Shown piece after piece: positions 21,502-28,500 of a stretch of DNA of 64,000 bases. The DNA is from Spelaeicoccus albus (GTDB taxonomy: Bacteria > Actinomycetota > Actinomycetes > Actinomycetales > Brevibacteriaceae), in contig NZ_JACBZP010000001.1 of the NCBI RefSeq assembly GCF_013409065.1, positions 62,001-126,000 of the forward strand. Direction: 5' to 3'. The position numbers and the translations under genes were made by a program. The notes beneath the pieces were generated by a model, which was given only the letters and a program-made list of their open reading frames with translations, was not told the DNA's origin and made no database searches. Position 1 is the stretch's first letter. Every line of letters begins with the position of its first letter.

Positions 21502-22035
21502 ATGCATGCAAATACCGAACGAGTCAGTGCTGCCCTCGAGGCGGCCCATATCGCCGGCCGCCCCCGCCGGCTCGATAGCGGCGCCACCACCGCTGCGGCA
21601 GCGGCCGCGCTTCTCGGCTGCGACGTCGGCGCCATCGCCAACAGCCTCGTCTTCACGGCCGACGACGGGATAATTCTCGTCATGACATCCGGCGCGCATC
21701 GCGTCGATACCGAGTATTTTGCCGGCGCAATCGGCGCGGGACGGGTCGGACGCGCAAGCGCCGACCAGGTTCGAAGCGCGACGGGACAGCCGATCGGCGG
21801 CGTCGCGCCGACCGGTCATCCGGCACCCGTGACGACGTACGTCGATCCGGCTCTGGCGGAGTACCCCACGATCTGGGCCGCCGCGGGCACCCCGGACACC
21901 GTCTTCCCGCTGGCTTATGACGAGTTGGTGCGCCTGACGAACGGAACCGAGCAGCCCGTCGTCCCGAGCGCCGCCGGGAAGTCCGCGGATGCCGGGTCGG
22001 CTCCGGATGAGTCTGGGCAGGGCGGCCAGCGATGA
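21502..22035 (+). CDS. YbaK/EbsC-type aminoacyl-tRNA deacylase
   Basis: A 177-residue trans-editing domain protein that hydrolyses mischarged tRNAs such as Cys- or Ala-tRNA(Pro). The fold is shown by RLDSGATTAAAAAALLGCDVGAIANSLVF, the DGIILVMTSGAHRVD core and the GGVAPTGH loop. The C-terminal 25 residues are low complexity. GGAGG lies only 1 nt before the ATG at 21502, unusually close, so the true start may differ slightly. It overlaps the queuosine transporter gene by 4 bp. Confidence 0.88.
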   Translation: MHANTERVSAALEAAHIAGRPRRLDSGATTAAAAAALLGCDVGAIANSLVFTADDGIILVMTSGAHRVDTEYFAGAIGAGRVGRASADQVRSATGQPIGGVAPTGHPAPVTTYVDPALAEYPTIWAAAGTPDTVFPLAYDELVRLTNGTEQPVVPSAAGKSADAGSAPDESGQGGQR

Positions 22036-22724
22036 GCCGTCCGATCAACGCTCAATACGCACTGCGCGGAAGCGGCAACTACGACGTCATCCTTGCTCTT
22101 TTCGTGGCCATCCTGCTCATTTCCAATATTGGGGCCACCAAGCTGATCGCCTTTGGACCCATCATCACCGATGGCGGCGCCTATCTCTTTCCGTTGGCCT
22201 ATGTGATCGGCGATATTCTCAGCGAGGTCTACGGATTCAAGGCAGCCCGCCGCGCCGTCATGATCGGCTTCGGCGTTCTGGTCTTGGCGGTCGTGGTGTT
22301 CTGGCTGGTTCAAATCTCGCCGCCGGCCGCCGATTATCATCACCAAAAGGCGTACGAAGCCGTTGTCGGCTTTGTGCCGCGGCTGGCTCTTGCCGGCATC
22401 TGCGGGTATTTCGTCGGGCAACTTCTCAACTCGTACGTCTTGGTCCGGCTCAAAGAGCGCACCTTGGAAAAGAAGCTCTGGGTGCGCCTGCTCGGCTCCA
22501 CGGGGGTCGGGGAGCTCGCCGACACGCTGGTGTTCTGCACTATCGCGTTCTACGGCGTCCTGACCGGCTGGAACTTCCTCAACTACGTAGTTGTCGGTTA
22601 CGTCTACAAATGCGCCGTGGAGATCATCGTCATGCCGATCACTTATCAAGTGTGCAAATTCGTCAAACGCCGCGAACCGACGTACGCGGCGCGCGGCTCC
22701 GAGACCGACACCATCGCGGCCTAG
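22032..22724 (+). CDS. Queuosine precursor transporter (YhhQ/VUT family)
   Basis: A 230-residue membrane protein with about six helices; family hallmarks are LLISNIGATKLIAFGPIITDGGAYLFP, GDILSEVYGFKAARR and GSTGVGELADTLVF. YhhQ imports preQ0/preQ1 or queuine for tRNA modification. The tRNA-guanine transglycosylase gene tgt is 1.5 kb away on the other strand, and no queuosine synthesis genes are seen, so a salvage role fits. Its start overlaps the YbaK gene. Confidence 0.9.
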   Translation: MSRPINAQYALRGSGNYDVILALFVAILLISNIGATKLIAFGPIITDGGAYLFPLAYVIGDILSEVYGFKAARRAVMIGFGVLVLAVVVFWLVQISPPAADYHHQKAYEAVVGFVPRLALAGICGYFVGQLLNSYVLVRLKERTLEKKLWVRLLGSTGVGELADTLVFCTIAFYGVLTGWNFLNYVVVGYVYKCAVEIIVMPITYQVCKFVKRREPTYAARGSETDTIAA

Positions 22725-22760: not shown

Positions 22761-22879
22761 TTCCGCGTGGGTGTCGGTGTTCCGCGTGGGTGTCGGTGTT
22801 CCGCGTGGGTGTCCAGCACGTAATACACCTACGCGGAGTACCGGGCCGCACGCGGAACGAACTTACGCGCACGCGGAAC
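22761..22879. repeat. Flanking repeat, left copy
   Basis: Three head-to-tail units of TTCCGCGTGGGTGTCGGTG (22761-22779, 22780-22798, and a shortened one from 22799). Inverted, degenerate versions of the same motif (ACACCTACGCGG, CACGCGGAAC) follow. About 90 bp from 22780 onward recur in the same orientation at 24035 with about seven differences. No coding capacity is evident here. Confidence 0.85.
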
Positions 22880-23019
22880 AAGCCAAAGTTCGCGCTGAAT
22901 CCTGGTCGTCGACGAAGTGACGATCCGGCTTGACGGCACATTTGCCCTGCACCGCCGCGCTATCCACAATTCAGCAATCGCTCCTGGCCAGTTGTCGGCG
23001 ACAGTCGCACCCTGAACCT

Positions 23020-23985
23020 ATGATTACGACAGATAATCCGGCGCTTGCTCAGATCTTTGCCGCGCGCGAAACTTTATCGTTCGGCGAGTTACGATCGGCA
23101 GGCTTGAGCAGCGCGCTTATCCGGCTGTCGCTGACGCGCCGGGCACTGGTCCGGATCGGGCGCGACATCTACACGCTTGGGCCGGAATGGGCCGATCTCG
23201 ACACGTATGTGCGAGCAGGCAGGCGGATCCGTAGCATGGCGCGGCGAAGTGAGGCGACGAAGACCGCGAGCGGAATCGCCGTCGGGCCGTCAGCCGCCGT
23301 TCTCTGGGGCGCCGACCTTTTGCACGTGCCGACACTCGTGCATCTGGCCGGCGAAGCGCGGTACGGTCGACGGTCGGCCGACGGCGTCGTGGTGCACGGT
23401 TTCGCGCTTCACCCCGACGAAGTGACGTCACTCGGCGGCGTTCTCGTCACCACTCGCGAGCGCACTTTGATTGATTGTGCGGCGATGCTTTCGCGCGAAG
23501 AGGCGGTCGTCGTCGTCGATAGCCTGCTTCATGCCGGGGCCAGGAAACACGTGGCCCGAGAACTTTTCCGTCGGCATCGACGAATCGGCGCCGCAAATAT
23601 CCGGTGGGCGCTCGACTTCGGCAACGGCTTAGCGGAATCCGCCGGAGAAAGCCGGGCCCGGTATGCGTTCAATCTGCTCGGGCTTCCCGCTCCGGAGCTG
23701 CAGGTCGTGTTGGAGACGCGGCGCGGCAGCGTCCGGCTCGATTTCCGTTGGAAGAAGTACAGATTGGTCTGCGCTTTCGACGGCAAGGTCAAATACGGCA
23801 AATATGCCAATGGCGACCCACAAAACGTCGCATGGAACGAACGTCAACGTGAATTGGCGATCATCGATACCGATCATGAGGTCTTCCGGCTGATATGGCC
23901 CGACTTGTCGAACCTGCAACTGATCAATCGTCGTTTTCTTGATGCCAGGGATCGGGCGATTCGCCGCTTCGGCCTTATCGTGTGA
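23020..23985 (+). CDS. AbiEi-like winged-helix / DUF559 nuclease-fold protein
   Basis: A 321-residue protein. Residues 1-55 look like the winged helix found in AbiEi-type antitoxins (FGELRSAGLSSALIRLSLTRRALVRIGRDIY). The C-terminal 110 residues match DUF559/PD-(D/E)XK: ESAGESRARYAFNLLGLP (Glu), VRLDFRW (Asp) and LVCAFDGKVKYG (Lys). Such solitary proteins are very common and numerous in actinobacteria; a toxin partner is not seen. I chose the ATG at 23020; an in-frame GTG-type start 90 bp upstream adds residues without homology. The gene stands between two direct repeats and a fragment of its own 5' part follows. Confidence 0.78.
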   Translation: MITTDNPALAQIFAARETLSFGELRSAGLSSALIRLSLTRRALVRIGRDIYTLGPEWADLDTYVRAGRRIRSMARRSEATKTASGIAVGPSAAVLWGADLLHVPTLVHLAGEARYGRRSADGVVVHGFALHPDEVTSLGGVLVTTRERTLIDCAAMLSREEAVVVVDSLLHAGARKHVARELFRRHRRIGAANIRWALDFGNGLAESAGESRARYAFNLLGLPAPELQVVLETRRGSVRLDFRWKKYRLVCAFDGKVKYGKYANGDPQNVAWNERQRELAIIDTDHEVFRLIWPDLSNLQLINRRFLDARDRAIRRFGLIV

Positions 23986-24034
23986 TTTGCGTCGCGGGTG
24001 CCCGGCGCCCGGCCTGTTGCCCAGGCGCGTCCCG

Positions 24035-24116
24035 TTCCGCGTGGGTGTCGGTGTTCCGCGTGGGTGTACAACACGTAATACGCCTACGCGGAGTACCGAG
24101 CCGCACGCAGAACGAA
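24035..24116. repeat. Flanking repeat, right copy
   Basis: Two units of TTCCGCGTGGGTGTCGGTG-type sequence followed by CACGTAATACGCCTACGCGG and CGCACGCAGAACGAAC. This is the same order and orientation as in the left copy at 22780-22863. Left and right copies are direct repeats around the AbiEi/DUF559-like gene. Confidence 0.85.
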
Positions 24117-24173
24117 CTGACGCGCCGGGCACTCGTCCGGATCGGGCGCGACATCTATCTACACGCTTGGCCA
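24117..24173 (+). pseudogene. Truncated duplicate of the AbiEi-like gene
   Basis: CTGACGCGCCGGGCACTCGT and the following CCGGATCGGGCGCGACATCT repeat the parent gene from 23131 with one change, then a small duplication (ATCTATCT) and ACACGCTTGG. The fragment covers parent codons for LTRRALVRIGRDIYTLG. It begins directly at the end of the right repeat and has no start codon or continuation. It looks like the remnant of a second gene copy. Confidence 0.8.
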
Positions 24174-24208
24174 GAGAACTGTTCCGTACACGCGGCAGCG
24201 GCGGCCAT

Positions 24209-25450
24209 TTACGCGTAGTACCGACCCAGGAACTCCTGTTTGAACGCAAAGAACGTGCCGGCGTCGATACTGGCCCGGATATCGTCGACCAAACGGATCA
24301 CGAAGCGTTCGTTGTGGATTGTGGCAAGCGTCGCCGCGAGCCGCTCTTTGGCCTTGAACAAATGGTGCAGGTAGGCCCGGGAGTAGTTGGCGCACGTATA
24401 GCAGTCGCAGCCGTCGTACACCGGGCCGAACTCCCGCTTGTGCTTGGCGCCGGTGACGTTGAATCGGCCGTCCGGCGAATAGACAGCCCCGTTACGAGCC
24501 ACCCGGGACGGTGACACGCAGTCAAATGTGTCAGTACCGTTCTCGATCGCCGTGAACATGTCGTCCGGTTCGGAAATGCCCAGCAGGTGCCGGGGTTTGT
24601 CCTCCGGAAGCTCTTCGCTCACCCAACGGACAATAGTGCCGAGATTCTCCTTCTCCAAGGCGCCTCCGATGCCGTAGCCGTCGAAATCCATGGCGCCAAG
24701 ATCCCGGGCCGCTTGACGCCGCAGGTCCTCGTATTGGGCTCCTTGCAGCACCCCGAAGAGCGCTTGATAGGGCCGGTACGACCGTTCGGCCGTCAACCTG
24801 GCGTGCTCGGTCAGGCAACGTTCGGCCCACAGCCGAGTGCGTTCGAGCGACGACTCCTGGTAACTGCGCGTGTTCATCAGGGTCGTGAGTTCGTCGAACG
24901 CGAACATGACGTCGGCGCCCAGCCGGTGCTGTACCTGCATCGAGACCTCCGGGGTGAACCGGTGCATCGATCCGTCAAGGTGCGATTTGAACGTCACCCC
25001 GTCATCGTCGACATGTGCCAGCCGGGTCTTGCCCTCGGCGATCACCTCGTCACTGCGCACTCCGGTTTTGTCCATGGCAATGACCTTTTTGAACCCGGCT
25101 CCGAGCGACATCACCTGGAAACCGCCCGAATCGGTGAACGTCGGCCCGGGCCAATTCATGAACCGGCCGAGCCCGCCGGCTTCATCGATGAGGTCCGAGC
25201 CGGGCTGCAGGTACAGGTGATATGCGTTCGCCAGCACCGCCTGCCCGCCGAGCGCCGAAACCGCCTCGGGCACCACCGCCTTCACCGTCGCCTTGGTGCC
25301 CACCACGATGAACGCCGGCGTTTCGATCCGGCCGTGCGGGGTGCGGATAGTTCCGGTGCGGCCCAGAAAGCCGTCGCCCATGGTGTTCCGGACGTCGAAT
25401 CCGAACTCCGCACGCACCGCTTCGGTTTCGCCCCCGCGCAAAATACTCAC
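24209..25450 (-). CDS. tgt: tRNA-guanine transglycosylase
   Basis: Swaps guanine 34 of GUN-anticodon tRNAs for a queuosine precursor. The protein has 413 residues. Catalytic and binding motifs: FTDSGGFQVMSLGAG (Asp), GVLQGAQY, GIGGALEKENL, FDCVSPSRVARNG (nucleophile Asp). The zinc ligands are in DGCDCYTCANYSRAYLHH. I selected the GTG at 25450 (start SILRGGETEAVRAEFGF), because upstream sequence lacks homology and overlaps lhr. It is convergent with the precursor transporter gene. Confidence 0.93.
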   Translation of the reverse strand: MSILRGGETEAVRAEFGFDVRNTMGDGFLGRTGTIRTPHGRIETPAFIVVGTKATVKAVVPEAVSALGGQAVLANAYHLYLQPGSDLIDEAGGLGRFMNWPGPTFTDSGGFQVMSLGAGFKKVIAMDKTGVRSDEVIAEGKTRLAHVDDDGVTFKSHLDGSMHRFTPEVSMQVQHRLGADVMFAFDELTTLMNTRSYQESSLERTRLWAERCLTEHARLTAERSYRPYQALFGVLQGAQYEDLRRQAARDLGAMDFDGYGIGGALEKENLGTIVRWVSEELPEDKPRHLLGISEPDDMFTAIENGTDTFDCVSPSRVARNGAVYSPDGRFNVTGAKHKREFGPVYDGCDCYTCANYSRAYLHHLFKAKERLAATLATIHNERFVIRLVDDIRASIDAGTFFAFKQEFLGRYYA

Positions 25451-25512
25451 CGCACCATCCAAGCAAGAACCCGCCGTGGGCGCGAATTCGGGGCGACCCG
25501 GGGACTCGGCAC

Positions 25513-28500
25513 TTAGCCGTCGAGCCGCCAGCCCTTCGGATTCGGCCGGAACCCGGCGGCCTCCAGACTGCCGGCGAGTACCTCGGCGGAACCGCCGTCC
25601 ACTTGTTCGATCGAAAGCCGTCGCACCCGGCCGCTCGTCACGACGTCGGCCAGTGACCGGCACGCGGCGTCCAACAGTCGCGGATCATCCGTGAACGTGA
25701 GCAAGGTGCGTCCACCGCGCTCGAGGTACACCGCGAGCTCGCCGCCGATCAGGACGACGAGAGCACCGGCTTTGCGTCCGGGCCGGTGCGCGGCATCGGG
25801 CCACGGCAACGCCGCGCCGTACGGATTGGCGGGGTCCGTGGCAGCCACCGTCACCGCACCGGCGTCGGCGCTTCCGGTGCCGGACCGACCATCCGACTCC
25901 GCGACGATCCGTCGCAACCGGTCGATCGTCGAGGCATCGGCGAATTGGGCTGCGCCGAGCCCTTGCACGAAATAGCCGCGGCGGGCCTTCCCTGCGTGCT
26001 CGAATTCGCTGAGGACCTTGTACGCCAGGGCGAATGCTCCGGGCACGTGTTCGGCAGTGACGGCGCCGCGGGTCACGATGCCGTGCCGGTCGAGCAGTTG
26101 CTCACAGACGGCGTGCGCGCGCACCGTCGGGTCGGACTCGGGCTCCGGCAGCAGCGACCACCGGCCCGCCGCCGTCGGAGGTCCCGCCCGCACGGACATT
26201 CCCGTGCGGCCCCTGTACATCCTGGCCCGCGGCGGCCGCGAGCGCTGCCGGTGCGTCGTCCGGCCTCCGCCGAGCAGCGCGCGCACCGGCGCGAACGTGT
26301 CATTGCCGATGAGCCCGGCCCAAAACAGATCCCAGAGCTCCGACTCGACGCCGCCGTCGGAGAGGTCGCCTGCAGCCTCCGCGATTTGCCGGAAGAAGTA
26401 GCCGCCTCCCCCGCCCAGCAAGTCGAGGATGCGCCGGCCGGCATCGGACACGTCGTCCGCGCTCCGGACCGGCAAGGACAACGGCGCCACATCGAGCGGA
26501 TGCATGGCGATCCACCCGTCGCTTCCGCTCAACCGCCCGGCACCGCTGACTATCACATCGCCGGCGGACATGACCTCATCAAGCATGGCCGGCGAATACC
26601 CCGCAATGCGCGAGGGCAGGATCAATGATTCCCAGGCGGACGCCGGCAGCGGCAGACCGGCCAGTCTGTCGGCAACCGCCACGAGCTCGTCGGCGCCGCG
26701 CGGGTTTTCGCGCACGCGCGTCGTGGCGTGGCCGATACCGTGCCAGTCGATAGTGAACCTGCCAAATGCACCCTGCGGGGCCGGCTCGACCTCGCTGCGC
26801 AAAGCGGCCAGCGACCTGCGACGCAGCGTGGCCAGGACGCCGCTGTCGCACCATTCGACTCCGACCTCGCCGGGGCGGAATTCGCCGTGCACGACACGGC
26901 CGGACGACTCGAGGCGAGTCAGGGTCGCGGTCACGAATTCAATGCCGGCACCAAGGGTTTCCGCGGCCTCGTCGGCCGTGAACGGACCGTGCGTGCGCGC
27001 GTATCGGCCGATGATGTCCCCCGATGCGTCCTCAACTGGTTCCGTGAACGCGTCGGGGATACCGGCGGGCGGCCGGACGCCGAGCGCATCGCGCAGCCGG
27101 GCGGCGTCCTCGACCGCCGCACACCGCTCCTTCCCGCCGATTTGAACGATGATGGCCCGGCCGGCCGTGACGAGTTCGGTCAGCCACCGGGCCGTGCGAG
27201 CTTCGTCGGCGTCGTCGGCGCGCGCGGCGACCTCGCCCCGGGTGAGCGGGCCGAGGGTCCTGAGCAGATCGGCGACCCCTTCGACGTCCGCGATCCTACG
27301 ACCCGGCGCCAGGTGTTGCAGTTCGTCCTCGGTCTGGCTGACGACGTCGGAGTCCAACAGTTCGCGCAGTTCGGCCCGCCCGAGAAGGTCCGCCAACAAC
27401 GACGAATCGAGCGACAGCGCCTGTGCCCGGCGTTCGGCCAGCGGGTTGTCGCTTTCATACAGGAACGATGCCACGTACCCGAACAGCATGGCGCCGGCGA
27501 ACGGCGACGCTCGCGGCGTCTCGACCTCGGCCAGTCGCAGTTCTCGCGCGGCGATGCGCCGGGACACGGCCAGCAGATTCGGCACGTCGTACACGTCGTT
27601 CATGCACTCGCGGACGGCTTCGAGCACTATGGGGAAGTCCGGGTACCGGGTGGCAACTGCCAGCAATTCGGCCGAGCGTTGGCGTTGCTGCCACAACGGC
27701 GAACGGCGTCCGGGATTGCGGCGGGGCAGAAGCAACGCGCGGGCCGCGCTTTCCCTGAATCTGGCGGCGAACAAAGCCGAATTGCCGACCTGCTCGGTGA
27801 CGATGCGGTCGAGTTCGACCGGGTCGAAAACGAACAGACTTGCCCCGGGCGGGTCGTCGTCGGTATCGGGAACGCGCAGCACTATGCCGTCGTCCCCGGC
27901 CACGGCACTGCCGGCCGTGCCGTGTTTCTCGGCCAACCTGGCACCGACCGCGAGTGCCCACGGAGCGTGCACGGCCATGCCGTACGGCGAATGCAGGACG
28001 ACGCGCCAGTCTCCGAGCTCATCGCGGAAGCGTTCGACGAGCAGTTCCCGGTCGGTGGGGACGAGCCCGGTCGCCGCGCGTTGTTCGCGCAGGTAGGCCA
28101 CCACGTTCCCGGCTGCGCGTTCGTCCAGCCCCTGCGCCAGGCACCGCGACCGAACCGTGGCGTCGTCGCTGGCGTCGAGTTGCCGCATGAACTCGCCGAG
28201 GGCCTCACCGAGTTCGTACGGCCGTCCGAGATTGTCGCCCTTCCAAAACGGCAGCCGCCCGGGCCGGCCGAAAGCAGGGCTGACGACCACCTTGTCGTGC
28301 GTGATCTCTTCAATGCGCCAGCTCGTCGCTCCGAGCGCGAAAACGTCGCCGACGCGGGATTCGTACACCATCTCTTCGTCGAGCTCGCCGACCCGCGCGG
28401 ATTTTTCGCCGGCCATGAAGACGCCATAAAGTCCACGATCGGGGATGGTGCCGCCGGACATGACAGCCAGTCGGGACGCGCCCGGCCTGCCGGTGATCGT

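Follow-up and report, generated by a model that had tools for sequence, protein, structure and literature searches.

A gene for an AbiEi-like protein with a Vsr-like nuclease domain in Spelaeicoccus albus is bracketed by dispersed palindromes, a candidate REP/RAYT-like system of Actinobacteria

The window analysed here is a stretch of 64,000 nucleotides of the Spelaeicoccus albus genome, in which a forward-strand gene (23020-23985) encodes a protein of 321 amino acids composed of an AbiEi-like part and a Vsr-like nuclease domain. To its left, a queT-type transporter gene was found on the forward strand (22032-22724; Pfam PF02592, Vut_1, E-value of 2.1e-52), and to its right the gene tgt, encoding queuine tRNA-ribosyltransferase, on the reverse strand (24209-25663; Pfam PF01702, E-value of 4.9e-124 over residues 101-483), the true start of which probably lies inside this open reading frame. 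Thus, queT and tgt are convergent, and the location between two queuosine genes given in a preliminary description of the sequence was confirmed. In total, the five neighbours scanned matched the domains tRNA_edit, Vut_1 (queT), TGT, Lhr helicase and LytR_C. Moreover, a repeat appeared on both sides of the nuclease gene in the same orientation (22779-22870 vs. 24034-24125), with 93% identity over 92 nt and 6 differences (blastn E-value of 2.9e-37), close to the about 90 bp and some seven differences previously described. Scanning for a 14-bp unit, TTCCGCGTGGGYGT, with up to 4 mismatches resolved both repeats into imperfect palindromes built of this unit, in which head-to-tail copies spaced at 19 bp were accompanied by inverted copies, again in agreement with that description. 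The left palindrome (P1, 22760-22880, no strand) presented three direct units (starting at 22761, 22780 and 22799), a 26-bp step and three inverted units (22825, 22844 and 22865), and the right one (P2, 24034-24113, no strand, with the direct-repeat match extending to 24125) presented two direct units (24035 and 24054) and two inverted ones (24080 and 24099), the core steps of 19, 26 and 19 bp being the same in both. Two decayed fragments of the nuclease gene were found to the right of P2, both keeping its order and orientation. The first (24117-24170, forward strand) corresponded to 23131-23180, with 98% identity between 24117-24157 and 23131-23171 and an exact match between 24157-24170 and 23167-23180, while the second and shorter one (about 24165-24188, forward strand) resembled 23548-23571 in a local alignment. 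Of these, the preliminary description had recognized the former, as a truncated gene copy at the right repeat, and had missed the latter. The simplest reading is that P2 and the gene fragments represent a second copy of palindrome plus gene shrunk by deletions, which fits the duplicated and decayed cassette that had been envisaged between queT and tgt.

The structure of the protein was predicted with AlphaFold2 from a 64-row alignment (mean pLDDT of 92.1, pTM of 0.89) and compared with known structures using VIA-align. Residues 5-202 (23032-23625, forward strand) matched AbiEi (6y8q; Z of 11.6, 178 residues, rmsd of 6.3) and Rv2827c (1zel; Z of 9.0), and residues 207-315 (23638-23964, forward strand) were nearest to the catalytic domain of the homing endonuclease I-Bth0305I (3r3p; Z of 10.8, rmsd of 2.6, 97 residues) and to Vsr (1cw0; Z of 9.2). 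Foldseek alone gave an E-value of 4e-5 for AbiEi and just 0.23 for Vsr. The predicted fold, together with the PADLOC AbiEi models matching the protein (best E-value of 3.9e-9), sustained the earlier view of an AbiEi-like protein with a nuclease-like C-terminus. Regarding sequence families, the window protein had no Pfam match at an E-value ≤1 and no relative in the Protein Data Bank at ≤0.1. At ≤0.01, PF18741 was matched by 25, PF04480 by 6 and AbiEi_4 by 38 of the 64 rows of alignment A3, the window protein matching none of them, and no NCBIfam model was matched by any of the 64 rows. In the same alignment, E210, D241 and K258 were present in all 64 rows and E252 in 62 of them, and these four residues are predicted to be catalytic by comparison with the matched nuclease folds. 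However, residue 252 (codon 23773-23775, forward strand) is Ala in the window protein and Lys in one of its paralogs (L063), against Glu in those 62 rows. Such a change is a probable loss of an active-site acid, and the window protein may be catalytically dead. The lost Glu and the decayed second copy make the window copy look old and perhaps inactive.

A fold joining AbiEi and a nuclease also raised the alternative of a defence or toxin-antitoxin module, in which a solitary AbiEi relative would kill or restrict and the repeats would serve as self-markers. This agrees with the PADLOC matches, and residues 64-202 (23209-23625) also aligned with the nucleotidyltransferase toxin MenT1 (8an4, Z of 9.2) and the MenAT1 complex (8an5, Z of 9.7). 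However, an AbiEii-type nucleotidyltransferase toxin partner was absent among the five neighbours scanned, and, with the window protein as the sole family query, only 1 of 72,556 plasmid records (E-value ≤1e-10) and none of 50,697 phage records (E-value ≤1e-5) were matched, counts on which plasmid or phage cargo was likewise rejected. Furthermore, a defence role leaves the dispersed cognate palindromes described below unexplained. Between the selfish and the defence element initially suggested, the former is favoured, and we regard the latter as very improbable.

To begin with the wider family, relatives of the window gene (E-value ≤0.001) were found in 48 of the 59 genomes searched, the genome of S. 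albus included. Among the first 15 homologous loci, nine had a repeat shared by both flanks at an E-value ≤1e-5, three had a weaker one (L061, 3e-5; L019, 1e-4; L062, 4e-4) and three had none (L010, L020 and L063). A larger sample was then taken from named genomes, comprising the best 80 of 535 loci, from Arthrobacter, Rhodococcus, Pseudonocardia, Geodermatophilus, Tomitella and others, of which 79 were testable and one was too short. A repeat common to both flanks was found in 55 of these 79 loci at an E-value ≤1e-3, in 48 at ≤1e-5 and in 37 at ≤1e-8, while 24 and 31 loci had none at ≤1e-3 and ≤1e-5, respectively, one locus (L144) being counted as a miss with a gene end that was wrong. For random spans of the same loci, the corresponding numbers were 35, 18 and 6 out of 800, and for other genes of 600-2000 nt they were 4, 0 and 0 out of 209 (2, 0 and 0 out of 66 when spacers of at least 80 bp were present on both sides), gene starts and control gene calls having been made by simple scripts. 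Independence cannot be assumed for the 48 loci, given that queT and/or tgt occur in 21 of the 80 and that many of them are closely related. Palindrome bracketing is common in this nuclease family in Actinobacteria, and the random-span and other-gene controls disfavour local duplication or chance as its origin.

The anatomy of these repeats was analysed in 76 repeats, taken from the 37 loci whose repeats reached 45 bp or more and from the window pair. Dyad symmetry exceeded the 95th percentile of shuffles in 70 of them, and 23 repeats matched themselves at an offset of 19 bp and 12 at 20 bp, compared to about 1% in the shuffles. The palindromes were mostly about 60-90 bp long, with units at 19-20 bp. 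Moreover, a GTAG tag lay beside 6 of 96 palindromes against a background of 4.4%, and hence this feature of REPtrons was not found.

The queT locus was obtained in 20 out of the 22 other genomes of the host's family, and no gene of this kind was detected in any of the 20 by tblastn with the window protein (E-value ≤1e-3). The alignments of queT and tgt ended 21-303 bp apart in 12 of these loci, about 0.9 kb of other sequence was present in two, and tgt was out of reach in the remaining six. Given this absence, either the window lineage acquired the gene or the other lineages lost it, and the arrangement thus varies among relatives, in line with the insertion initially proposed. On the other hand, a homologue between queT and tgt was also found in another family (G041, locus L089), where the palindrome bracketing it is a different one. 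In a tree of 73 rows, the window protein grouped with two of its own paralogs and with a gene of G003 (97/93), the window row being long-branched, and labelling the queT-tgt site on the tree needed 7 changes. A common origin of the insertions in the window and in the G041 genus was therefore rejected. Since the tree does not join them, they are read as separate arrivals, suggesting from these phylogenetic relations that the queT-tgt junction may be a recurrent target.

In the genus of G041, 21 of 30 queT-tgt loci were readable on both sides. These comprised 12 cassettes, in one of which the gene is truncated, two near-empty junctions (in G099 and G104; one of 54 bp with an apparent palindrome remnant, the other of 42 bp), one palindrome without the gene (L197, in G085) and six junctions with other content. 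Further short junctions were indicated by coordinates in G062, G091 and G098. Two palindrome types were distinguished by eye at this site in the genus, both sides being alike in the 12 readable cassettes. In the occupied junctions the palindromes lay only a short way from where queT and tgt end, and the junctions of the relatives were too diverged for a target-site duplication to be read. As for the less regular cases, the gene-free palindrome of L197 seemed by eye to be split by another palindrome unrelated to it, and the other content (L190, L192, L196, L200, L205 and L209) measured 0.8-1.0 kb, with palindrome-like sequence at the left end in two of the six.

Within the S. albus genome (4.03 Mb in one contig, 98.9% complete), 13 candidate stretches were fetched and nine further palindrome arrays were found, once four stretches (L059, L060, L064 and L065) with only one or two units each had been excluded from the unit count. 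The inner step was 26 bp in eight of these arrays and 39 bp in the one at 3948024. A pattern of two units with up to 3 mismatches occurred in this genome and in none of 34 relatives. Consequently, the search for the repeat elsewhere in the genome, advised in the preliminary description, was answered positively, and both this genome-wide dispersal of a palindrome family specific to the protein and the recurrence in other actinobacteria go beyond what had been noted there. Regarding the paralogs, L061 (3387472-3388380) and L062 (3913882-3914817) were each flanked by a distinct repeat, in one case containing a tandem unit of 19 bp, at the E-values given above, which are weaker than the 1e-5 threshold, and the third (L063) had no flanking repeat.

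The palindromes of the 48 loci were compared in pairs, considering the palindromes only. Where a pair of loci had at least one homologous flank, similar palindromes were found in 0 of 32 at 40-50% protein identity and in 2 of 57 at 50-60%, rising to 26 of 38 at 60-70% and 29 of 31 at ≥70%. Among pairs without homologous flanks, the numbers were 0 of 731 below 50% identity, 5 of 146 at 50-60%, 25 of 77 at 60-70% and 7 of 16 at ≥70%. According to these tallies, the type of palindrome depends on the protein and not on the insertion site, and each protein lineage has its own palindrome.

Presence of the palindrome was also related to the protein across genomes. In the genus of G041, the palindrome of this genome was found at an E-value ≤1e-5 in 14 of 51 genomes, including all seven with a protein at least 64% identical (G041 itself included, and G103 with a truncated gene). 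It was present in 6 of 29 genomes with a protein of 57-63% identity, G067 (63%) being one of those without it, in the single genome at 53% it was absent, and it appeared in 1 of 14 with no protein above 50%. The number of sites, gene-side copies included, was 18 in G101, 8 in G041, 7 in G106, 6 in G108, 5 in G061, 3 in G103 and 2 in G094 (both beside the gene). A second genus agreed only partly with the link between gene and palindrome: the G043 palindrome was found in 4 of 18 genomes, with seven sites in G043, five in G120 (best protein 73% identical, the match covering 252 of 333 residues) and a single site in both G111 and G122, and it was absent from genomes with proteins of 69%, 69%, 65%, 65% and 61% identity. 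Overall, solo palindromes are dispersed in genomes that have a close cognate gene. Separately, matches of the nuclease gene that were broken up or incomplete were observed in G089:C197, G103:C10, G082:C26 and G105:C179, suggesting repeated decay of cassettes.

These counts bear on homing, according to which the nuclease would cut a solo palindrome as an empty site and repair from a cassette would copy the gene in, leaving a palindrome on each side, with recombination between the two restoring the solo state. Such a cycle agrees with the nuclease domain being closest to the catalytic domain of I-Bth0305I and with the gene-free palindrome, near-empty junctions and cassettes that coexist at queT-tgt. 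However, there are more palindromes than genes: in G101 the 18 sites, among them those flanking the gene, contrast with 2 protein matches. Homing by itself thus fails to account for how the palindrome spread, and it is considered distinctly unlikely.

Presence and absence were checked at one solo site. The solo palindrome of G041 at C11:746274 lies between convergent genes and was absent at the same junction in G067, where the stop codons overlap, and in G101 and G081, where about 10 bp separate them. In one further genome (G093, L270), short tandem repeats filled this junction. Unrelated palindromes were observed by eye at the junction in other genomes, as would be expected if convergent junctions were passive hot spots that gather terminator palindromes, with the gene inserted by chance and a local duplication following; the six queT-tgt junctions with other content point in the same direction. 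Nonetheless, the other genes of the same loci showed almost no flanking repeats in the controls (4 of 209 at the most lenient threshold), and the palindrome type follows the protein even among loci with homologous flanks, which leaves this explanation barely credible.

Another way of accounting for the palindromes is autoregulation, where they would be AbiEi-type operators, and perhaps bidirectional terminators where convergent genes end, through which the protein controls itself and other genes, the nuclease being secondary and the spread due to ordinary duplication. In its support, AbiEi and Rv2827c are described in passages of PMC7319586 as binding, in the promoter of their own gene, inverted repeats of 23 bp that occur in pairs, neither of them binding those of the other. 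Moreover, the palindromes fold strongly as RNA (P1, -85.7 kcal/mol, a value without a shuffled control), and 41 of the 80 family genes lie between convergent neighbours according to a rough ORF caller. However, an operator would be expected neither to recur downstream of the gene nor to occur alone at other places, the solo copy checked was missing from the same junction in relatives, and the presumed nuclease residues are kept in nearly all rows of alignment A3. This reading is therefore held to be unlikely.

The REPtron-like reading, behind which the regulator, homing and defence readings rank, is that the palindromes and the nuclease gene form a cassette that works in the manner of REP/RAYT, with an unrelated nuclease as its enzyme. 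In REPtrons, as described in parts of PMC8266576 and PMC8049555, a RAYT gene is bordered by palindromes that also occur genome-wide, their abundance often going with the presence of the gene, and RAYT enzymes are thought to mobilise the REPs. A RAYT was rejected as the mobiliser here, as the Y1 family (PF01797, RAYT-type) was found in none of eight genomes, with the control positive in 5 of 14, and such absence favours a REPtron-like system with a different enzyme. By analogy with AbiEi and Rv2827c, the winged-helix part would bind the units spaced at 19 bp, and the nuclease would cut palindromes or their close surroundings, or else intergenic targets, many of them between convergent genes. 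Break repair or strand transfer would then copy the palindrome, occasionally with the gene, to new places, since a homing-type nuclease held at the palindrome could start copying by break repair. In the window, a cassette would have entered the queT-tgt junction and undergone a tandem duplication, after which the second copy decayed. While association, specificity and presence or absence are observed, mobilisation by the protein is our inference, and the cassette reading is given about even chances of being right.

A broader proposal is made more tentatively and at slightly less than even confidence, namely that palindrome systems of a selfish or domesticated kind are widespread in Actinobacteria. 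In them, a protein combining AbiEi-type DNA binding with a homing-type nuclease would recognise its own palindromes, periodic at 19 bp, and copy them across the genome. These would be the functional counterpart of REP/RAYT arising from a different enzyme, and could explain many of the solitary AbiEi/DUF559-like genes in these bacteria. Relatives of the window gene are common and are currently annotated either as antitoxins or as proteins of unknown function. Should each of them have its own dispersed palindrome, this would amount to a second, RAYT-independent origin of REP-like repeats. Many matched pairs of protein and recognised DNA would also become available, and the spread of small palindromes in bacterial genomes could be tested with a different enzyme.

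Regarding the literature, the search covered open-licence PubMed Central papers. Within it, no description of palindromes flanking AbiEi/DUF559-like genes and no report of a mobilising role for an AbiEi/Vsr-type nuclease in DNA-repeat systems were found. Passages of PMC3710099 name a REase domain of the Vsr family as part of a single large protein that also contains HEPN, transglutaminase and wHTH domains, and palindromes go unmentioned in them. With respect to this open-licence literature, no known family was found whose defining features are all shared by the system.

Compared with known systems, REase_MTES_1575 (PF18741) and DUF559 (PF04480) are matched by part of the rows of alignment A3, while the window protein matches neither. 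I-Bth0305I shares the Vsr-like fold of its catalytic domain with the window protein, despite the Ala at residue 252 in the latter, and differs from it in that here a free gene lies between two housekeeping genes, which is not the usual setting of I-Bth0305I, with an AbiEi-like part joined to the nuclease and palindromes on its flanks. The likeness to the AbiE type IV toxin-antitoxin system lies in the AbiEi fold of residues 5-202 and in the binding of inverted repeats by AbiEi, as presented in parts of PMC7319586. However, the window gene is solitary, without the toxin gene among the neighbours scanned, has an extra nuclease domain and has palindromes on both sides and elsewhere. Finally, the REPtron is resembled in that the palindromes border the gene, are dispersed and are specific to their cognate protein, as found here and, in part, in the second genus. 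Unlike REPtrons, with their HuH/Y1 enzymes, the cassette protein consists of an AbiEi-like fold and a Vsr/homing-type nuclease, and its palindromes lack the GTAG tag, are mostly about 60-90 bp long and have units at 19-20 bp.
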